A DNA stretch of 64,000 bases from Thermoplasmata archaeon (GTDB taxonomy: Archaea; Thermoplasmatota; Thermoplasmata; Lutacidiplasmatales; UBA184), in NCBI GenBank assembly GCA_022750055.1, contig JAKIWL010000003.1, forward strand, positions 119,300 through 183,299. The letters run 5' to 3'. The translations under genes were made by a program, and so were the position numbers. The notes under the pieces were generated by a model. The model made no database searches. It worked only from the letters and a program-made list of their open reading frames with translations, and had not been told where the DNA came from. Below are positions 12,465 through 20,633 of this stretch, in pieces (positions within the stretch are counted from its first letter, which is position 1; each line of letters begins with the position of its first letter).

Positions 12465-15014
12465 TTGAACCAACCGTTTCGGGACTCGCACCAAAACGTG
12501 AGAATACACTCCGCCGACTTGCGATTTCAGATGCGCCGACGGATGAGCCACTGGTCCCGACCCGGCCGGATTCGAATCGTCTCCGCCCGGGTCGCCCTGT
12601 CGGTCCTGTTCGCAGCAATGCTCGCCTTCTCCGTCTACGGAACGCTCTCTCCTCCTCCCCTTCGCTGTGGTCTACCGGGCTCGGTTGGCTGCTCGGGCGG
12701 ACTGCTCGGTCCGGCCCTGGTGCCGGCAAGCTCCGGCGAGCAGTGGTTCACCGTCACGCTGTTCGACTACGGGTTCTGGATCGTCGATTCGACAACGGGC
12801 GCCAATGAGTCGACGGCTTGGAACGTCTTCGAAGGGTGGACGGTCCACGTCAACGCCACCAGTCTGGCCCCCGACGCGGCGGTCGGTGGGACCGCCTACC
12901 ACGGCCTAGGTGTCGAGCTCAATCAGACCGGCCAGCAACTCCTTTCCCTGGCCGCGCCGGTCGGAGCTTGGACCCCTGGGAGCTTCGTGGCCCCTCTCGC
13001 CGAATACCATCACCAGCACATCTGGTGCACGATCCAATGCGGTCCGGGCCACGGCGGGCAACAGGCCTGGGTCCTGAACGTAATCCCTTCGGTCCCACTG
13101 CCGAAAGCCACGGCCACCTCGAACCTGACGTCCGGGCGAGCCCCGCTCGCCGTCACTTTCACGGGGACCCCGAGCGCAGGGACGCCGCCGTACAATACCA
13201 GTTGGGACTTCGGGGACGGAACCGCGATCGGATACGGCGTCAGCGCGGGCCACACGTACGCGTTAGGGGGTGCCTACGAGGCCCAATTCCGAGTGACCGA
13301 CGCGAAAGGGATGGGCGCGACCGCGAGCGTGGGTATCCTCGTCAACTCCTCCGACCCGCTTCGGGCGTCCGTTTCCGCCGCCCCGACCCTCGGGGCGGCG
13401 CCGTTCACGAGTACGCTCAGTCTGATCGTGCATGGTGGCGCGCCGCCGTACACGTACGCATGGTCCTTCGGGGACGGGAGCACGGGCTCGGCCGGGAACC
13501 ATACGAGTCACCTCTACGCCGCCCCCGGTGTGTATGCGGTCGTCGCCACGGTCACCGACTCGCACGCGAGCTCGGTGCGGATCCTGACGTCGATCATCGC
13601 CTCCCCTCCCCTCGGCTATTTCCCGGTGACCGTCATCGCAAACCCACCGAACGGGTCCGCCCCTATCATCATCCAGATGAGCGCGACGCCGCTGGGTGGA
13701 ACCGCCCCCTATCGGTACCTCTGGGTCTTCGGAGATGGCTCGACGGGATCCGGGGCGTCCTCGGCCCATCAATACAACCTCACCGGATCGTACGAGGTCA
13801 ACCTGTTCGTGAGCGACTCCGCCGGTCACGTCGGGTCGGCGGCGGTCAACCTCCCCCTCGTCGCAGCCTCGGGCGGGGGCGGCGGAGGCGACGAACGCCC
13901 CGCGGGCGGCCCCCTCGCCTCCCCGGCGGCTGTCAATGGAACGCTCACGATCTTTCCCCTGGCGACTCCCCGAGACGGTGGCTCGCCTCTTCTCGTCAAC
14001 GCCTCGGCGTCCATCGAGGCGGGTACCGGATTGGGAGAGACGATCAGCTGGAATTTCGGGGATGGCACGACAGGATCCGGGACTCAGGTCTCCCATCAGT
14101 TCGCTCGGGTGGGGGCCTACAATGTCACCGTCACGGCGACCGATTCCGGCGGGAACCAGGGTTCCAACCGGACGGTGGTTCGGGTGGAGCCGCTCAGCAT
14201 GACGCTCGTGGCGAACCGGTCGCTCGGTGACCCGCCCATCTCGGTGACGACGGCCGTCTCGATCGTCGGCGGCACGGGCCGGTTCGGCGTCGTCAGTTGG
14301 AATTGGGGGGACGGCAATACGTCCTTCGGCAACCTCGTGAACCGGACCTACGGTCCGAACGAGACCGGACCGATCGTGATCCGTGCTTCGACCACGGACT
14401 CGTTGGGGACCCTTGTGAATGCCTCGATCACGCTTCAGGTGAACCCCGTACTCGTGGCGACGGTCAACGTCCGCCACCCGTCGTCGGTACTCCCCCCGGT
14501 CAATGTGGACTTCACGCTGGACACCCGGGGCGGGAGCGGCTCGTACAACGCCCTGCCGTTATGGGACTTCGGAGACGGCACGAGTACTCGCAGTGGCAAT
14601 GTGACGAATCATTCCTACTCGAAGCTCGGCGACTATCGGATCGTGGTGCGGACCAACGACAGCCTCGGAAGCTCGGTGGTCGCGAGCGCATGGCTGAACC
14701 TCACGGTCGCCCCACCGACCCAGCCGGTGAAGTTGGGAGGGAAGCCACCGTGGTCGCTCACCGGCGTCTCGGATCCCAACCGTGCTGCGCTCATCCTGAT
14801 CGGCATCGTGGCGGCCACGGGCCTCCTACTCCTCCAGCAACGTCGACGCCGGTCCAAGGCAAAGCCGACGACTCGTCCGAACCCCCGTCCGGGACCCGGT
14901 GCGACCGCACGCTCGGCTTCGCCTCCGTCGGTCGCTCGGCCCGCCAGTCGGCCGGTGACGGCGATCGGGGCGAAACCTGGCGCAGTCCCGCCGCCGTCGA
15001 AGGCCGTGAAGTAG
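12465..15014 (+). CDS. exported PKD-repeat protein with CuA-like cupredoxin motif
   Basis: This large surface protein (849 residues from a TTG start; in-frame ATGs at 12531 and 12543 are alternatives) has an N-terminal signal/anchor (VALSVLFAAMLAFSVYG). A roughly 150-residue domain follows, ending in WCTIQCGPGHGGQ, then six PKD domains each with a FGDG or WGDG motif. A C-terminal membrane helix (ALILIGIVAATGLLLL) and a basic Pro-rich tail finish the chain. The Cys-x3-Cys-x3-His array (C188, C192, H196), with an upstream His at 146, matches the CuA site of cytochrome oxidase subunit II. The usual axial Met is replaced by Gln199. I infer a copper-binding electron-transfer domain on a cell-surface stalk. 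It heads a tight four-gene operon. Confidence 0.85.
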   Translation: MNQPFRDSHQNVRIHSADLRFQMRRRMSHWSRPGRIRIVSARVALSVLFAAMLAFSVYGTLSPPPLRCGLPGSVGCSGGLLGPALVPASSGEQWFTVTLFDYGFWIVDSTTGANESTAWNVFEGWTVHVNATSLAPDAAVGGTAYHGLGVELNQTGQQLLSLAAPVGAWTPGSFVAPLAEYHHQHIWCTIQCGPGHGGQQAWVLNVIPSVPLPKATATSNLTSGRAPLAVTFTGTPSAGTPPYNTSWDFGDGTAIGYGVSAGHTYALGGAYEAQFRVTDAKGMGATASVGILVNSSDPLRASVSAAPTLGAAPFTSTLSLIVHGGAPPYTYAWSFGDGSTGSAGNHTSHLYAAPGVYAVVATVTDSHASSVRILTSIIASPPLGYFPVTVIANPPNGSAPIIIQMSATPLGGTAPYRYLWVFGDGSTGSGASSAHQYNLTGSYEVNLFVSDSAGHVGSAAVNLPLVAASGGGGGGDERPAGGPLASPAAVNGTLTIFPLATPRDGGSPLLVNASASIEAGTGLGETISWNFGDGTTGSGTQVSHQFARVGAYNVTVTATDSGGNQGSNRTVVRVEPLSMTLVANRSLGDPPISVTTAVSIVGGTGRFGVVSWNWGDGNTSFGNLVNRTYGPNETGPIVIRASTTDSLGTLVNASITLQVNPVLVATVNVRHPSSVLPPVNVDFTLDTRGGSGSYNALPLWDFGDGTSTRSGNVTNHSYSKLGDYRIVVRTNDSLGSSVVASAWLNLTVAPPTQPVKLGGKPPWSLTGVSDPNRAALILIGIVAATGLLLLQQRRRRSKAKPTTRPNPRPGPGATARSASPPSVARPASRPVTAIGAKPGAVPPPSKAVK

Positions 15015-15024
15015 CGCACCGTCC

Positions 15025-15873
15025 ATGATCGGGTCGAGCGCTCAGGAACCCTCCCCACCCTCTCCGAACGAACCTGATCGCGCCGACCTCCCAGTGGTTC
15101 CGAGCGCACTCGGTCGTCGTGTCCTCCTGTACGAGTTCGTGGTGCTCGCCGAGTACTGGCTCGCCCCTACCTTGCTCGGCGTGACGAACTACGCCGGCAT
15201 TTGGTCGGACGTCGGTGTGCTCCTCTTCGTCCTCTTCGTCGGTTCGCTCGCGTGGTTCGTCCTTCGACCGCTCCGCCCCCACCTGAAGCGGGCTCTTCGA
15301 TCTCGCGAATCCCGTCTCGCCTTCCATGGTGTGTGGGCGGCCGCGCTCGCCGCGGCGCTGTTCGTGACGAATGTGTTTCAGATCAGCCGGCCGAGCGCGA
15401 TCGGCAGTTCGGTTCAACTCGGCGACACCACGGTCTACTCCCCGTTCGGGGCGTGGCCCAGCCTGACGGTCTACCTACCCAGGATCGGCCTGTTCGGAAC
15501 GTTCGATGTTGAGGTCCTCACCGTGCTCGGACTCATCTCCGTCCTCGGGTCGGCGGCGCTCCGCCTCGCGATCGACCGGAGGTCCACGACCTGCCCCGCT
15601 GTCCCGACCCGACCCTGGACCACGCGGGTCGCCACCGTCGCCGTCTGGTCGCCCCTTGGACTCATCACCGGATGCACGGCTTGTGCCCCTGCGTACCTCG
15701 CGATCCTCGGCCTCGTCGCGCCGGCGGCGTCGACCGGGCTCGCCTCGGTCCCGTTGGTCCCGTGGATCGGACTCGCTGGCCTTCTGTACCTGGGGAGCTT
15801 CGGTCTCGCCATCCATCTGATCCGGCGCGCGACGGGCCCGGCGCCCGAGTCGGTGGGGAACCCGGAGCCATAG
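15025..15873 (+). CDS. polytopic membrane protein with CxxC in a membrane segment
   Basis: This is a 282-residue protein with about six hydrophobic helices and no recognised family. A helix near residue 215 carries GLITGCTACAPAYLAIL, placing two cysteines in or at the edge of the membrane. That arrangement suits metal or disulfide chemistry. It starts 11 bases after the CuA-like gene and ends seven bases before the RnfD-like gene, so all are co-transcribed. The similar cysteine-rich helix in the last gene of the operon (ACCCTSC) suggests the two are related or act on the same cofactor. Confidence 0.8.
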   Translation: MIGSSAQEPSPPSPNEPDRADLPVVPSALGRRVLLYEFVVLAEYWLAPTLLGVTNYAGIWSDVGVLLFVLFVGSLAWFVLRPLRPHLKRALRSRESRLAFHGVWAAALAAALFVTNVFQISRPSAIGSSVQLGDTTVYSPFGAWPSLTVYLPRIGLFGTFDVEVLTVLGLISVLGSAALRLAIDRRSTTCPAVPTRPWTTRVATVAVWSPLGLITGCTACAPAYLAILGLVAPAASTGLASVPLVPWIGLAGLLYLGSFGLAIHLIRRATGPAPESVGNPEP

Positions 15874-15879
15874 GGTCGG

Positions 15880-17262
15880 ATGGCGACGGCCGGCCCACCG
15901 ACCCAGATCTTTTGCCGGCTGTGCGGCCGGATGATGGCGCCCGCCTCCCGATGCCCGGGCTGCGGGTGGGTCGATCGGATCGGGCTGCTCGCGGAGGCGA
16001 GCTTCACTCCCCCCGCGCGGCCCTCGGCACCGGTCCCGCTCGCCCTGCCGGCCCGGCCACCGGCGTCCGCCCCCACGACGACCCCCGAGGCCCGCCCGTT
16101 GGGGTCCCTGATCGCCCCCACCTTCACCGACTCGCTGAGCACGTCGGGGGCCACCGGGAACACCCAGAGCGTCCCGGCCCCTTCGCTGGCCGTCCCACCG
16201 ACTGAAGCGGGGCCCAAGAAGGAACCGTCGCTGACCGCCCCGATTCGGCCCTCCGGATCACCCCGCCCGCCTTCGCCTAGGGCGCCGAGCCCCTCTGGAG
16301 CCGCTCGCGTCCCTCATTCCGCGGCGGCCGCCCGGAGCCCAGCGACCGCGCAGCGGGCGCGGACCCTGTCGCCCCGCGCTTGGCTCAAGGCGCTCTGGAA
16401 GCGCCACCTGCCGCCGGTTCGCCTGGTCTGGGTGTTCCTCGCGATCCTCCTATGGAACGGTCAAGGATTGAGGAACTTCGCCACGGCCCAGCCGCTGCTG
16501 CTGCTCCCGCTCGTCGCCGTGCTGGCCGACCTGGGTCTCCAAGCCGTCCGCTTCCCCAGGGTCCGCGTCCCGGACGCTGCAATCGCCAACGGCCTGTTCC
16601 TATCGGTGATCCTGTGGCCGACCCAGATTTCGCTCGCGCTCGTCGCGGTGGCCGTGGTCACGGTGGGGCTGCGGCACGCGGCCCGGGTCGCGAGCCACCC
16701 GATCTTCAACCCGGCCGCGGCGGGGGTCCTGATCGCCGCCACCGTCTTCGCCCTCCCCCAGCCTTGGCACATCGGGATCACGCGATGGGATACGCTCCTT
16801 GTCGCAGTGCTCGGACTCGTCCTCTGGTCCAAGGCTTGGCCCACCTGGAGGATCTGGGGTACCTACTTCGCGTGCAACCTGATCGTCGTCGTCGCCGTCG
16901 CCGACCTGCTCGGAGGCTCGAAGGCGGTCCCCCTCGTCCTGCAGACGTCCCTCCTCGGCACGACCCCTGTGTTCTTCGGTCTCTTCATGGTCACCGAGCC
17001 TCGGACGGCTCCGACCGCGCGTGTCGCGATGCTCGTCTTCGGCTCCCTCGTCGGGGCCTCCGCGGCCCTGCTACCGGTCCTCTTCGCCGAGTACACGGCC
17101 ATCTCCGCCCTCGGCGTCCTCGCGCCGTACCTCGCACTCTTCGTCGGGAACGTCTTCACCGTGGCCCTCCCGTCGGCGCGCGGGATCCGCCGGCCCGCGA
17201 CCGCCCCAGTCCCCACCCCGGCGCCCCGACGTCCGGCGGGCGCGGGCAGCGGGCCGTCGTGA
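15880..17262 (+). CDS. zinc-ribbon plus RnfD/NqrB-like membrane protein
   Basis: This 460-residue protein starts with a zinc ribbon (FCRLCGRMMAPASRCPGCGW). A Pro/Ala-rich linker of about 140 residues and eight to ten membrane helices follow. The membrane part contains HPIFNPAAAGVLI and FFGLFMVTEPRTAP, which resemble the NQR2/RnfD/RnfE family of flavin-carrying subunits of Rnf and Na+-NQR complexes. A clear (S/T)GAT flavin-attachment motif is not seen, so covalent FMN is uncertain. No other Rnf or Nqr subunits are present in the window. With the CuA-like protein upstream it points to a membrane electron-transfer system, which is inference. Confidence 0.8.
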   Translation: MATAGPPTQIFCRLCGRMMAPASRCPGCGWVDRIGLLAEASFTPPARPSAPVPLALPARPPASAPTTTPEARPLGSLIAPTFTDSLSTSGATGNTQSVPAPSLAVPPTEAGPKKEPSLTAPIRPSGSPRPPSPRAPSPSGAARVPHSAAAARSPATAQRARTLSPRAWLKALWKRHLPPVRLVWVFLAILLWNGQGLRNFATAQPLLLLPLVAVLADLGLQAVRFPRVRVPDAAIANGLFLSVILWPTQISLALVAVAVVTVGLRHAARVASHPIFNPAAAGVLIAATVFALPQPWHIGITRWDTLLVAVLGLVLWSKAWPTWRIWGTYFACNLIVVVAVADLLGGSKAVPLVLQTSLLGTTPVFFGLFMVTEPRTAPTARVAMLVFGSLVGASAALLPVLFAEYTAISALGVLAPYLALFVGNVFTVALPSARGIRRPATAPVPTPAPRRPAGAGSGPS

Positions 17263-17320
17263 ACCGCCCTCGGAAGCGGGGCCGATGCGCCGTGCCGTGT
17301 CCCACCCCCAGGGAGACACG

Positions 17321-18526
17321 GTGACGCGACCGGACCGGGTCGGGCTGGATTGGTCCACGTTCTCGCTCCGCGAGACTCGTTCCCGGGTCCATGGGTGGAT
17401 GGCTCGGGGCCTTGCCACTGTGGTCGGAATCGCGGTTGCGCTCGGGTCCCTGTTGGCGGGCGGGATGCTGACGCTCTTCCCGACCCAGGGGGTGTACACG
17501 GCCGAAATCCTGAGCGGAAGAGGCCTCGCGGGCTGGTGGTTCTTTCCCGAGGTCCTCGTCGTCCAGCCGTGGGGGATCCTGCAGCTTCCCTGGCTTCCGA
17601 CCCTGGCGATGATCCTGGTGGCACTGGGGGCGGGATGGGGATCGGCCGCGTCCATCGGCGCGATCGTGCGTTGGCTCCGCCGCCGGACCCCGGGGGAACG
17701 GGGGGCCACGGTCGCCGGGATCGCGGCGGGAGCGGGCCCCGGGATCGCTTCGATGGCTACTCTCGGTGCCTGCTGCTGCACCTCCTGCACCTCAGCGGCC
17801 GGACTCGCGGTCGTGGCCGCGACGAGCGGAACGACGGTCGGCACGCTACTCCGGGTCGACTGGTACCTCCCCGTCTTCCAGGTCGCCGTCGTCTACCTGA
17901 GCCTCCTGGCACAGGAGCGCGCACTCCGCCGGACCGAGACCCTGGAGCCGACCTCGTCTCCGCAGGGTCGTTGGTTCCTCGTCGCAGCGGCGCTCCGAGT
18001 TGCCCTCCTCATCGCCGGGATGACCTGGTCGCTCGCGATGTTCGTCGAGTGGGGGACGGTCGATCCGGCCACGGCCTCCTCCGCGGACTGGTACCATTGG
18101 ATCTTCGAGCACCAGCTCCTGTCAATGATCGCCATCGCCGCCGCGCTGTTCCCCCGAGAGCTCGTATCTCTGTTCCAAAATCGGCCGTGGCGGATGCCGC
18201 TGTGGATAAGTCGCGCTGCGTTGCTCCTCGCCGGGCTGACCTGGGGCACCTGGGTGCCTCCCGCCCTCGTGAAACTCGGCTTGGGAGGCTTCGTCAACGA
18301 GCTGCTGGGCGCGATCGGGTTTCCCCCCTCCTGGGGGGCGGTGGCCCCGGACGTCGCAGTCGGGCCGGCCTTGGTGTTCCACTGGGCCTTCCAGCATCTC
18401 CTACTCTCTGGATTCTCCTTGACCCTCGCCCTCTCCCCCACGATCGCGGCCCGGGCCGTCCTAAACTCGACCTCGGCGCCCTCCCCCTCCTCGGGGGCGC
18501 AAGGAGATGTGGTTCCCTCCGCCTGA
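17321..18526 (+). CDS. polytopic membrane protein with CCCxxC motif and intramembrane His residues
   Basis: This is a roughly 401-residue protein with about nine hydrophobic helices and no family I recognise. A membrane segment carries LGACCCTSCTSAAGL, four cysteines within six residues. Two later helices look like repeats of each other, WIFEHQLLSM and WAFQHLLLSG, each with a His that could bind heme or copper. I chose the GTG at 17321 because GGGAG precedes it; an ATG at 17285 is possible, and the long track start at 17021 lies inside the RnfD-like gene. It is the last gene of the operon. The cysteine cluster fits a metal-handling or redox role. Confidence 0.78.
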   Translation: MTRPDRVGLDWSTFSLRETRSRVHGWMARGLATVVGIAVALGSLLAGGMLTLFPTQGVYTAEILSGRGLAGWWFFPEVLVVQPWGILQLPWLPTLAMILVALGAGWGSAASIGAIVRWLRRRTPGERGATVAGIAAGAGPGIASMATLGACCCTSCTSAAGLAVVAATSGTTVGTLLRVDWYLPVFQVAVVYLSLLAQERALRRTETLEPTSSPQGRWFLVAAALRVALLIAGMTWSLAMFVEWGTVDPATASSADWYHWIFEHQLLSMIAIAAALFPRELVSLFQNRPWRMPLWISRAALLLAGLTWGTWVPPALVKLGLGGFVNELLGAIGFPPSWGAVAPDVAVGPALVFHWAFQHLLLSGFSLTLALSPTIAARAVLNSTSAPSPSSGAQGDVVPSA

Positions 18527-18698: not shown

Positions 18699-19823
18699 TC
18701 AGAACGGTCGGTTCGGTCGGGATCGGCCGCGATACGCGGCCAGGGCGAGGACGCTGACCATCCCAACGGCGACCGCCATCACCTCGGTCGAGGCCGGAGT
18801 GATCGCCCACGCCGGTAGGAGGCCGTGGGTGAACGCCGTGAGGTTGAGTTGTACCAGAGGGTCGTACTCGAGCTCGGAGTACCCGCCGCGGGTCGCGTTG
18901 AATCGCAGGAGGACCGTCGACGCCGACGCATCGCGAGAGAAGTTTCGGTAGGCTACGACCGAGCTGTTCGACCCGGGCCCGCTGCCATAGGCGACCGACG
19001 CCGACGAGACCCAGGAGAGGGTTGCGACGGTCTGATGGCTGCCGTTGGCGACCTCGAGGACCGAGTTCGGGGCGACCCCTGGGATGAGGGTAGTCGAGGG
19101 CACCGCGACGCTGGCGATCTCCATCCCCAGGACGTCGCGTGTGTCCGTCCAGGGCCAATGGTCGACCGCCACGTCGAAGCTGACGGACGACGGAGCCGGC
19201 GCCGCCGAGGCGTTGAGCGTGAAGGTCAGGGAGACGTTGGTGCTCCCCGGACCACTGTCGAGAACGGAGACCTCGTCGCCGGATTCCCAGCCGCCGTGGG
19301 TGAAGCTGACGCGGGCGGTCGCGTTGAGCCAGACCATCTCCCCGCCGCCGCTCGGGGCGGAGGCGATGCGCCAGGTGACGTTCTGGGTCAGGAACGGAGC
19401 GAAGGCCGTGACGTTTCCCGTGGGGGTCACCTCCGCGATCCGCTCGAACGAGTGCACCGAGGCGACCCGACCGTCCCGGTCGGAGGTGATGGTGAACGAG
19501 GGAAGAGGGTTCGTCAAGGTCAGGCGTACGACGCCATTGTCCCACGTCCCGGCCGCCGAGTCGAGGAGGTGCAGGCCCGTCCCGACCCTTGCCATTGAGC
19601 CCGCCGGGCCTCCTAGGCCGGAGGGCCCCAGAACGATCGTGATCGCGGCGAGGGCGACGAGCGCGGCGGCGTAGGCGCACCACGTCGGGGCCCTCCCGGC
19701 GCCCCTGGATTCCATCGGATGGTGGTGTATCCGGATGCGAGGATTCGTCGGTTTTGGCGCAAGACCCGCAATCGTTGGTGCGTAGATTGTCATTCCAGGG
19801 GGCTCGTCGCTCCGACCCTTCAT
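18699..19823 (-). CDS. exported, C-terminally membrane-anchored protein of unknown function
   Basis: This is a 374-residue protein with an N-terminal hydrophobic segment (YAAALVALAAITIVLG), a Ser/Thr/Val-rich outer domain of about 270 residues with several N-x-S/T sites, and a C-terminal membrane helix (VMAVAVGMVSVLALAAY). The outer part looks like beta-sandwich material but carries no motif I can name. The first ATG (19823) overlaps the stop of the regulator gene (ATGA). A second ATG at 19715 would place the signal segment closer to the N-terminus. It is co-transcribed with the regulator and a small membrane protein. Confidence 0.7.
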   Translation of the reverse strand: MKGRSDEPPGMTIYAPTIAGLAPKPTNPRIRIHHHPMESRGAGRAPTWCAYAAALVALAAITIVLGPSGLGGPAGSMARVGTGLHLLDSAAGTWDNGVVRLTLTNPLPSFTITSDRDGRVASVHSFERIAEVTPTGNVTAFAPFLTQNVTWRIASAPSGGGEMVWLNATARVSFTHGGWESGDEVSVLDSGPGSTNVSLTFTLNASAAPAPSSVSFDVAVDHWPWTDTRDVLGMEIASVAVPSTTLIPGVAPNSVLEVANGSHQTVATLSWVSSASVAYGSGPGSNSSVVAYRNFSRDASASTVLLRFNATRGGYSELEYDPLVQLNLTAFTHGLLPAWAITPASTEVMAVAVGMVSVLALAAYRGRSRPNRPF

Positions 19824-20341
19824 CGGAGCAGCGCGCTCCAGGTCTCGACGAACCGATCGACCAGCCGATCCCGGAACGATTCCCGATAGAGACCGAGGAG
19901 TTCCGCGAGACGCTTCGGTTGGGAGGGTCGGAACCGGCGAAGATTCCCGTCCCGAAACATCTCGACCGCGCCGACCCGAAGGAGTTCACGCAGGTGGAAC
20001 GAGGTCGTGCTCAGGCTCATTTCCGTGGACTCGCTCAGACCGGCGACGGTCAATCCCGGCTCTGCGGCGAGCGAGATCAAGAGTCGACGCTGGGTCGAAC
20101 TGCGCAACGAACGCAGTAACTTCCGGTCGTCCCACGCTACACTGGGACGAAAGTAGTAGTCCCGACGGCCCCCGCGTTCTCGACGAACCGCCCCGGCTCG
20201 GGTGAGCTGATCCAGGTGGTAGGCGGTCTCCCCCCAGGCGAGGCCGGAGAGGCGTTGGACGTCGCGCGCGCTCGAACCCGGATGGCTCCCGACTACCTCG
20301 TAGATCCGCCGGCGGGTCGGCTGGTCGAGAATATCATCCAT
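19820..20341 (-). CDS. double winged-helix transcriptional regulator
   Basis: This 173-residue protein has two ArsR/MarR-like winged-helix domains in tandem. The first runs from about residue 1 to 75 (TRRRIYEVVGSHPGSS with recognition-helix region ETAYHLDQLTRAG). The second is near 85-150 (STQRRLLISLAAEPGLTVAGL with STTSFHLRELLRVGAVE). Tandem winged helices of this kind are common DNA-binding regulators in Thermoplasmata and haloarchaea. The ATG at 20341 overlaps the upstream small membrane gene by eight bases; the ORF-track extension to 20440 is a shadow of that gene. Probable target: its own promoter, where an inverted repeat flanks the TATA region. Confidence 0.85.
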   Translation of the reverse strand: MDDILDQPTRRRIYEVVGSHPGSSARDVQRLSGLAWGETAYHLDQLTRAGAVRRERGGRRDYYFRPSVAWDDRKLLRSLRSSTQRRLLISLAAEPGLTVAGLSESTEMSLSTTSFHLRELLRVGAVEMFRDGNLRRFRPSQPKRLAELLGLYRESFRDRLVDRFVETWSALLR

Positions 20342-20633
20342 GCTTCTCCGGGGCCCGCTCGGGTCGCCGTCGGACCAGGGCGACGTACAGGAGGACCACC
20401 GCCACGACGGCGAGGGCAAGTGGAACGTCGTCGACCGCAAACCCCCCTCCGTACCGGGGAGAGAGCTGGTGCAGCAGGGAGAGGATCCCGATCGCCATCA
20501 GAAGGCCCTGCGCTCCGCCGACCGCGCCCAGTCTCGCGTCCCGGTATCGCGCGGCGGCGGCCAAGCCGATCGTCAAGAGGATCGCCGAAAGCCCGGCGAG
20601 CAAGGTGGAGAGAAGAACAGTCAGCAGTTCCAC
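20334..20633 (-). CDS. small three-helix membrane protein
   Basis: This protein is about 99 residues long with three hydrophobic helices (ELLTVLLSTLLAGLSAILL, GLLMAIGILSLL, ALAVVAVVLLYVAL). I chose the GTG at 20633 because it lies 25-30 bases from the AT-rich promoter core, as for other leaderless genes here; the track's TTG at 20642 is three codons longer. It is the first gene of a three-gene operon with a winged-helix regulator, so a membrane sensor or anti-regulator role is possible but unproven. Confidence 0.65.
   Translation of the reverse strand: MELLTVLLSTLLAGLSAILLTIGLAAAARYRDARLGAVGGAQGLLMAIGILSLLHQLSPRYGGGFAVDDVPLALAVVAVVLLYVALVRRRPERAPEKHG

Follow-up and report, generated by a model that had tools for sequence, protein, structure and literature searches.

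A predicted CuA-domain surface protein encoded beside an altered RnfD/NqrB homologue in a family of Thermoplasmata archaea

A four-gene membrane cluster

The window analysed here is a stretch of 64,000 nucleotides (C3:119300-183299) from the five-contig, 1.52 Mb genome of a Thermoplasmata archaeon, and our subject is a cluster of four genes, A to D, at positions 12465-18526 of this window (Table 1). By homology and predicted fold, gene A encodes a membrane-anchored protein with a COX2-type CuA domain, and gene C encodes a relative of the membrane subunit RnfD/NqrB. A preliminary description, made from the sequence alone, had reported four closely spaced plus-strand genes encoding a CuA-type motif (A), a CxxC motif (B), a zinc ribbon with an RnfD core (C) and CCCxxC and His motifs (D). 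The coordinates bear out the strand and the spacing, all of the motifs are present, and the PKD domains and C-terminal transmembrane (TM) helix of A are additions to that list. Each of the four genes shows the high-GC3 codon pattern typical of genes in this genome (GC content by codon position). That description was to be given up if the four genes never occurred together elsewhere; gene-neighbourhood comparison found the families together in other genomes. Conserved relatives of A, B, C and D occur there in the same order, which indicates that the cluster is more than a chance arrangement. The statement that the usual partners are not nearby also holds: no oxidase genes were present among the scanned window genes around the operon, the COX2 of this genome lies on contig C5 rather than on the contig of the cluster and RnfA/E is absent genome-wide, while N2O reductase was not searched for genome-wide.

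Table 1. Genes and domains of the cluster and its flank, in window coordinates.
Feature	Position	Strand	Description	Basis
Gene A	12465-15014	+	849 aa; N-terminal TM helix, COX2-type CuA domain (predicted), about six PKD domains, C-terminal TM helix and basic tail	Translation; Pfam PKD_4, 7e-61
CuA domain of A	about 12732-13109	+	His57...Cys99-x3-Cys103-x3-His107-x2-Gln (alignment A4 numbering)	24-sequence alignment, profile, hhalign, AlphaFold, Foldseek/VIA
Gene B	15025-15873	+	282 aa; 10-base gap after A; membrane protein with GCTACAP (CxxCxP)	
Gene C	15880-17262	+	460 aa; 6-base gap after B; N-terminal zinc ribbon (CxxC...CxxC) and RnfD/NqrB-like membrane core	
Gene D	17321 (GTG) or 17285 (in-frame ATG) to 18526	+	Membrane protein; gap after C of 58 bases (GTG) or 22 bases (ATG); GACCCTSC and YHWxxEHQLL / FHWxxQHxLLS motifs	
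F3	18699-19823	-	Exported protein, TM helix at the C-terminus; repeatedly found next to the cassette	
F7	19820-20440	-	Winged-helix regulator; recurrent neighbour, paired with F3	HTH_HVO_0163_N, Pfam 4.6e-17

Gene A carries a COX2-type CuA domain

The protein encoded by A holds CTIQCGPGHGGQ with a His upstream. Its kinship with CuA proteins was missed by single-sequence searches of Pfam and the PDB and by the first profile run against the PDB, and was resolved only via a profile search of genomes together with profile-profile and structure comparison. Copies of the N-terminal (CuA) domain numbered 15, including that of the window, in the first set of loci around relatives of C, and 25 in a class-wide search. 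In the 24 sequences that were aligned, the ligands His57, Cys99, Cys103 and His107 are invariant. The axial position, Met in canonical CuA, is occupied by Gln in 18 of them (including the window's), by Met in five and by Leu in one.

The A profile alone retrieved genuine COX2 proteins from the genomes with E-values of 3e-8 to 2e-4. When it was compared by hhalign with a set of five COX2 proteins, the match had a probability of 97.6% (E 3e-12) and placed the His and Cys ligands in register, with Gln opposite Met; B, C and D, used as unrelated controls, all gave less than 1%. AlphaFold modeled the domain with a pLDDT of 90 and a pTM of 0.84. The closest structures to this model were COX2/CyoA subunits (VIA Z 10 to 12.4, the highest being CoxB at 12.4), followed by Thermus CuA (Z 10.7) and N2O reductase (Z 9.9), and Foldseek matched it to caa3 subunit II and CyoA with a probability of 1.00. 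The preliminary description had proposed that its reading should be given up if the domain folded as something other than a cupredoxin; the predicted fold is that of a COX2 cupredoxin. On the grounds of homology and predicted fold, A carries a genuine COX2-type CuA domain, and the protein probably binds copper.

The domain shares with COX2 and N2O reductase both the fold and the ligand pattern His...Cys-x3-Cys-x3-His-x2-(Met/Gln), and is homologous to the lineage's own COX2. Unlike COX2, however, A has no adjoining oxidase subunit I, its CuA domain is followed by PKD domains and then a second TM helix, most members have Gln for the axial Met, and there is no Glu between the Cys residues (CTIQC in A, CTEFC in COX2). 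PmoD is also a membrane-anchored extracytosolic protein with a CuA site outside the oxidases and N2O reductase, but it builds that site across a homodimer using another motif (PMC6189053), whereas in A a single chain has the canonical motif. Among canonical CuA proteins, the nearest relative of the A domain that we saw is a COX2-like protein of genus g6 (L104:1504-1851, minus strand), which contains CTVPCGPGHSGM.

A and C form a cassette

We examined the surroundings of all 25 A genes. C lies directly downstream of A, on the same strand, in 19 of the 21 cases where this could be tested; of the other six A genes, four lie where the contig ends at the place expected for C, and two have no C. This gives 18 intact A-C pairs and one deleted pair (genome G245). 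Across the 18 intact pairs, the distances between A sequences and those between C sequences were strongly correlated (Mantel r 0.88; no permutation out of 5000 reached this value), a value to which common species history contributes. Where a genome has two or three copies, A and C for the most part point to the same nearest relatives, class by class. The adjacency and the co-divergence of paralogous pairs lead us to conclude that A and C form a cassette, and we infer that the two proteins are in physical contact.

All of the confident A genes belong to one archaeal family, in samples of 300 genomes from the class and 389 from the phylum, and this family is apparently Lutacidiplasmatales. The AcS and SubAcS genomes have been placed in Lutacidiplasmatales (PMC9287336), and the named relatives of D come from Thermoplasmata metagenome-assembled genomes (MAGs) that include AcS5-116, AcS1-3 and SubAcS15-120. 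We had considered that the cassette might belong to the CuMMO-bearing Angelarchaeales (PMC9038741), and dropped this because the named D loci include Lutacidiplasmatales MAGs.

Some occurrences depart from the usual arrangement. In G245 a single open reading frame (ORF; L040:7414-8883) joins the CuA domain to the core of C. We rejected it as a Rosetta-stone fusion since it arose by an internal deletion and its first Cys is replaced by Arg; decay of this copy or an error of assembly is the most likely explanation. The A genes without C (L156:8294-12022 and L157:8871-12548) are divergent from a surface protein of 1,220-1,240 aa with beta-propeller (NHL/YNCE-like) repeats, PKD domains and C-terminal zinc ribbons. 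At L158:7285-11040 the operon context is different: near a contig end, a Met-type A precedes a B of the CCCCTP type and a gene of the DoxX family.

C is a homologue of RnfD/NqrB

The Pfam family PF03116 (RnfD/NqrB) matched C at 7e-6, below the cut-off, and the profile of the C family (A3) matched structures in the PDB at 1.5e-5 to 2e-5, including RnfD at 1.5e-5 and NqrB at 1.7e-5. The membrane core is homologous over both halves, the NPA motif and the gate Phe are conserved, and the position of NqrB D346 retains an acidic residue. As judged from these sequence comparisons, the homology of C to RnfD/NqrB is genuine. An SGAT string in C was considered as a flavin mononucleotide (FMN) site and discarded, as it sits in a low-complexity N-terminal linker.

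The window genome and most of the family also contain a second RnfD-like gene without A (e.g. L004:6722-8338, minus strand, with similar loci at L047-L069). This standalone paralogue contains an additional hydrophobic stretch and, at its C-terminus, a conserved domain that is probably extracellular and has two conserved Cys residues; the domain is of the form LHxxLGPSVILSY...VVFYDPVN.VTVTE.DLYED.G.AEFNGDD...GC and has no Pfam match. It seems that the RnfD-like core may acquire its extracytosolic domain in two ways, in cis in the standalone paralogue or in trans from A.

A possible electron-transfer module at the cell surface

We tentatively favour the view that the cassette encodes an electron-transfer module in the membrane of an aerobic archaeon, on its outer face, with CuA in the place of a flavin partner for the RnfD-like subunit; we regard this as close to evenly poised between right and wrong. 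The dinuclear CuA centre of A would sit close to the outer side of the membrane, the PKD domains would form a stalk on the surface that leads back to the membrane, and C would be the integral RnfD/NqrB-type membrane partner of A. The position of A would be the one in which bacterial Nqr/Rnf-like pairs use an FMN domain of the NqrC/RnfG type. The CuA centre of A would exchange electrons with C, or with a quinone or flavin that C holds, and the electrons would then go to a blue copper protein or to an acceptor at the surface. We infer this direction of electron flow, and likewise that B and D would assist at this site in copper loading or thiol redox chemistry.

There is a precedent for part of this scheme, in that an RnfD-like subunit without the flavinylation Thr can work with one extracytosolic redox partner (PMC11334425). 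We liken the A-C pair to the bacterial two-subunit Nqr/Rnf-like complexes (PMC8238504, PMC11334425) because in both cases there is an RnfD-like subunit lacking that Thr and a single extracytosolic redox protein. The A-C pair differs from them in having a CuA partner instead of an FMN-binding domain, and in the lack of a cytosolic domain binding nicotinamide adenine dinucleotide (NAD) on C; searches of A to D against Pfam and NCBIfam found no FMN-binding extracytosolic domain.

Several observations weigh against this electron-transfer role. Profile alignment showed that the FMN-bearing segment between the two halves of C is missing, and neither ApbE nor the RnfA/E family (PF02508) was found in any of the 17 A-bearing genomes, the window's included, in searches whose positive controls worked. 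Of the NqrB residues taken from PMC10643135 as a test of the riboflavin pocket (T162, G198, N200, A205, F342 and D346), N200 is replaced by Pro in 41 of 41 C relatives and T162 is lost in the A-linked C clade, where Thr is kept in one of 17. F338 is kept, F342 is mostly kept and D346 is replaced, conservatively, by Glu in all 41 relatives. In C the pocket would be lined by F365, F369 and E373. A flavin is possibly bound in C; as the pocket is only partly kept, electron transfer through C stands as a proposal. Pfam and NCBIfam also detected no NAD-, ferredoxin- or quinone-binding domain on A to D. RnfD/NqrB and the ammonium/urea transporters are of common ancestry (PMC12174285), so C could transport instead. 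Finally, two A paralogues occur without C. C differs from RnfD/NqrB in its flavin-related features and also in its added N-terminal zinc ribbon. The preliminary description had called C an RnfD-like subunit of flavoprotein type, and of these two parts the RnfD homology stands and the flavoprotein type is not supported, given the missing FMN segment, the lack of ApbE and the changed riboflavin ligands.

To our knowledge, CuA centres are found almost only in oxygen- and N2O-reducing enzymes, PmoD being a rare exception. A lineage-specific surface CuA family tied to an RnfD-like subunit would, if true, widen the range of settings in which biology uses CuA, and the natural Gln and Met versions of A are ready material for testing how the axial ligand tunes CuA. 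Thermoplasmatota are without c-type cytochromes (PMC9287336), and the proposed module would, if real, show how archaea lacking cytochrome c might move electrons at the cell surface. A bolder form of the proposal is possible, although we consider it to be somewhat on the unlikely side: the cassette may represent an undescribed class of membrane oxidoreductase, with a surface CuA, naturally switched from Met to Gln at the axial position, substituting for the flavin shuttle of an RnfD/NqrB-type subunit. Archaea that lack cytochrome c would in that case have a copper-based path for electrons across the envelope. The A-C cassette makes the CuA/RnfD-like electron-transfer proposal directly testable. 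The cassette of these soil archaea is apparently undescribed; we found no description of such a cassette in the open-access papers that were searched, subscription papers being outside the search.

Genes B and D and the possibility of copper handling

B has no Pfam or NCBIfam family. Its relatives were found at six more loci, and it is present in the window's clade, in L068 and in L158 (where the motif is CCCCTP). B, an optional component of the cassette, is not found at most A-C loci of other clades, and more than half of all A-C loci lack D. D has no significant Pfam family, and the candidate assignments to CtaG-like or MerT-like proteins gave no significant match, MerT appearing for D at E 1.9 only and not at all for B. 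Homology between B and D was not supported (hhalign probability 8%), and an AlphaFold model of D from five sequences had a pLDDT of 46, too low for a claim about its fold. A scan of the genome contigs with the single D sequence found nothing. Relatives of D were found at 27 loci in archaeal MAGs, with A or C nearby in only five of these, which indicates that D is older and more widespread than the cassette and is mostly located elsewhere. One relative (L114) is on a contig labelled Nitrososphaeria archaeon (DRTY1_bin.15), reflecting either transfer or a mislabelled bin. As B is optional and D mostly lies elsewhere, the complete A-B-C-D set is present in only three genomes, i.e. the window's, G281 and G073. 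The finding in the preliminary description is real and is better supported for A and C than was stated there, but it was too strong on flavin and on a four-gene complex, of which the A and C core stands.

B and D are central to the main rival explanation, acquisition or loading of copper or another soft metal, which we regard as unlikely while taking it seriously. Here the CuA-type site of A would capture copper at the surface, the Cys-rich B and D would carry it in or across, and C would be a channel or scaffold with the ammonium/urea/RnfD fold; the metal could be destined for the terminal oxidase or for blue copper proteins. The adjacent membrane Cys residues of B and D (GCTACAP, CCCCTP and GACCCTSC) resemble the Cys pairs of mercury transporters. 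MerT and MerF likewise have adjacent or near-adjacent Cys in a membrane helix, and there is the hint of MerT for D, but B and D have no significant sequence match to these proteins and are larger, and D has conserved His-Trp motifs. The loss of flavin features in C and the relationship of RnfD to ammonium/urea transporters suit this explanation, and invariant Cys and His ligands with a variable axial ligand are as appropriate to binding as to redox chemistry. However, searches of B, C and D against Pfam and NCBIfam gave no significant metal-transport family, CuA sites normally serve in electron transfer, and the patchy presence of B and D among A-C loci would be odd for the transporters of such a system.

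It is clearly improbable that C is a non-redox solute or ion channel and A a structural or sensing surface protein with a recruited COX2 domain whose CuA site is vestigial. The loss of FMN and of part of the riboflavin pocket in C would fit this, as would the different C-terminal domain that the standalone C clade has in place of a partner A, and the Cys1 to Arg change in the copy of one genome. But vestigial sites would not be expected to keep every ligand except the axial one invariant in 24 sequences, and the Arg copy is also deleted in its middle, which is consistent with loss of the whole cassette.

Neighbouring genes F1, F3 and F7

A subfamily of D with the motif CCST and without the His-Trp motifs is found directly upstream of a gene, F1, in most genomes of the family. 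F1 encodes a multi-TM protein of about 700 aa with a C-terminal 4Fe-4S pair (e.g. L118:9334-11448, L130:9719-11812 and L035:104-2227), and other families of the class have F1 homologues that are not accompanied by D. In G281 and G073, F1 is beside the cassette, with F3 and the regulator F7 lying between, which suggests a redox setting and counts in favour of the proposed electron-transfer module. A larger respiratory assembly, in which A would exchange electrons with C, D and F1 together in a NosR/NapH-like chain to a copper acceptor, would account for these two adjacencies and for the placement of CCST-type D, but it is very improbable, as CCC-type D is mostly away from F1 and the F1 locus of the window genome is on another contig and looks eroded. 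At that locus (L165:5842-8656, contig C2), F1 is broken into two ORFs, and all that is left of the D-type gene is a short remnant; both are intact in relatives. F3 has no Pfam family. Together with F7 it also adjoins the cassette in L035, L037 and L040, on the opposite side from the arrangement in the window.

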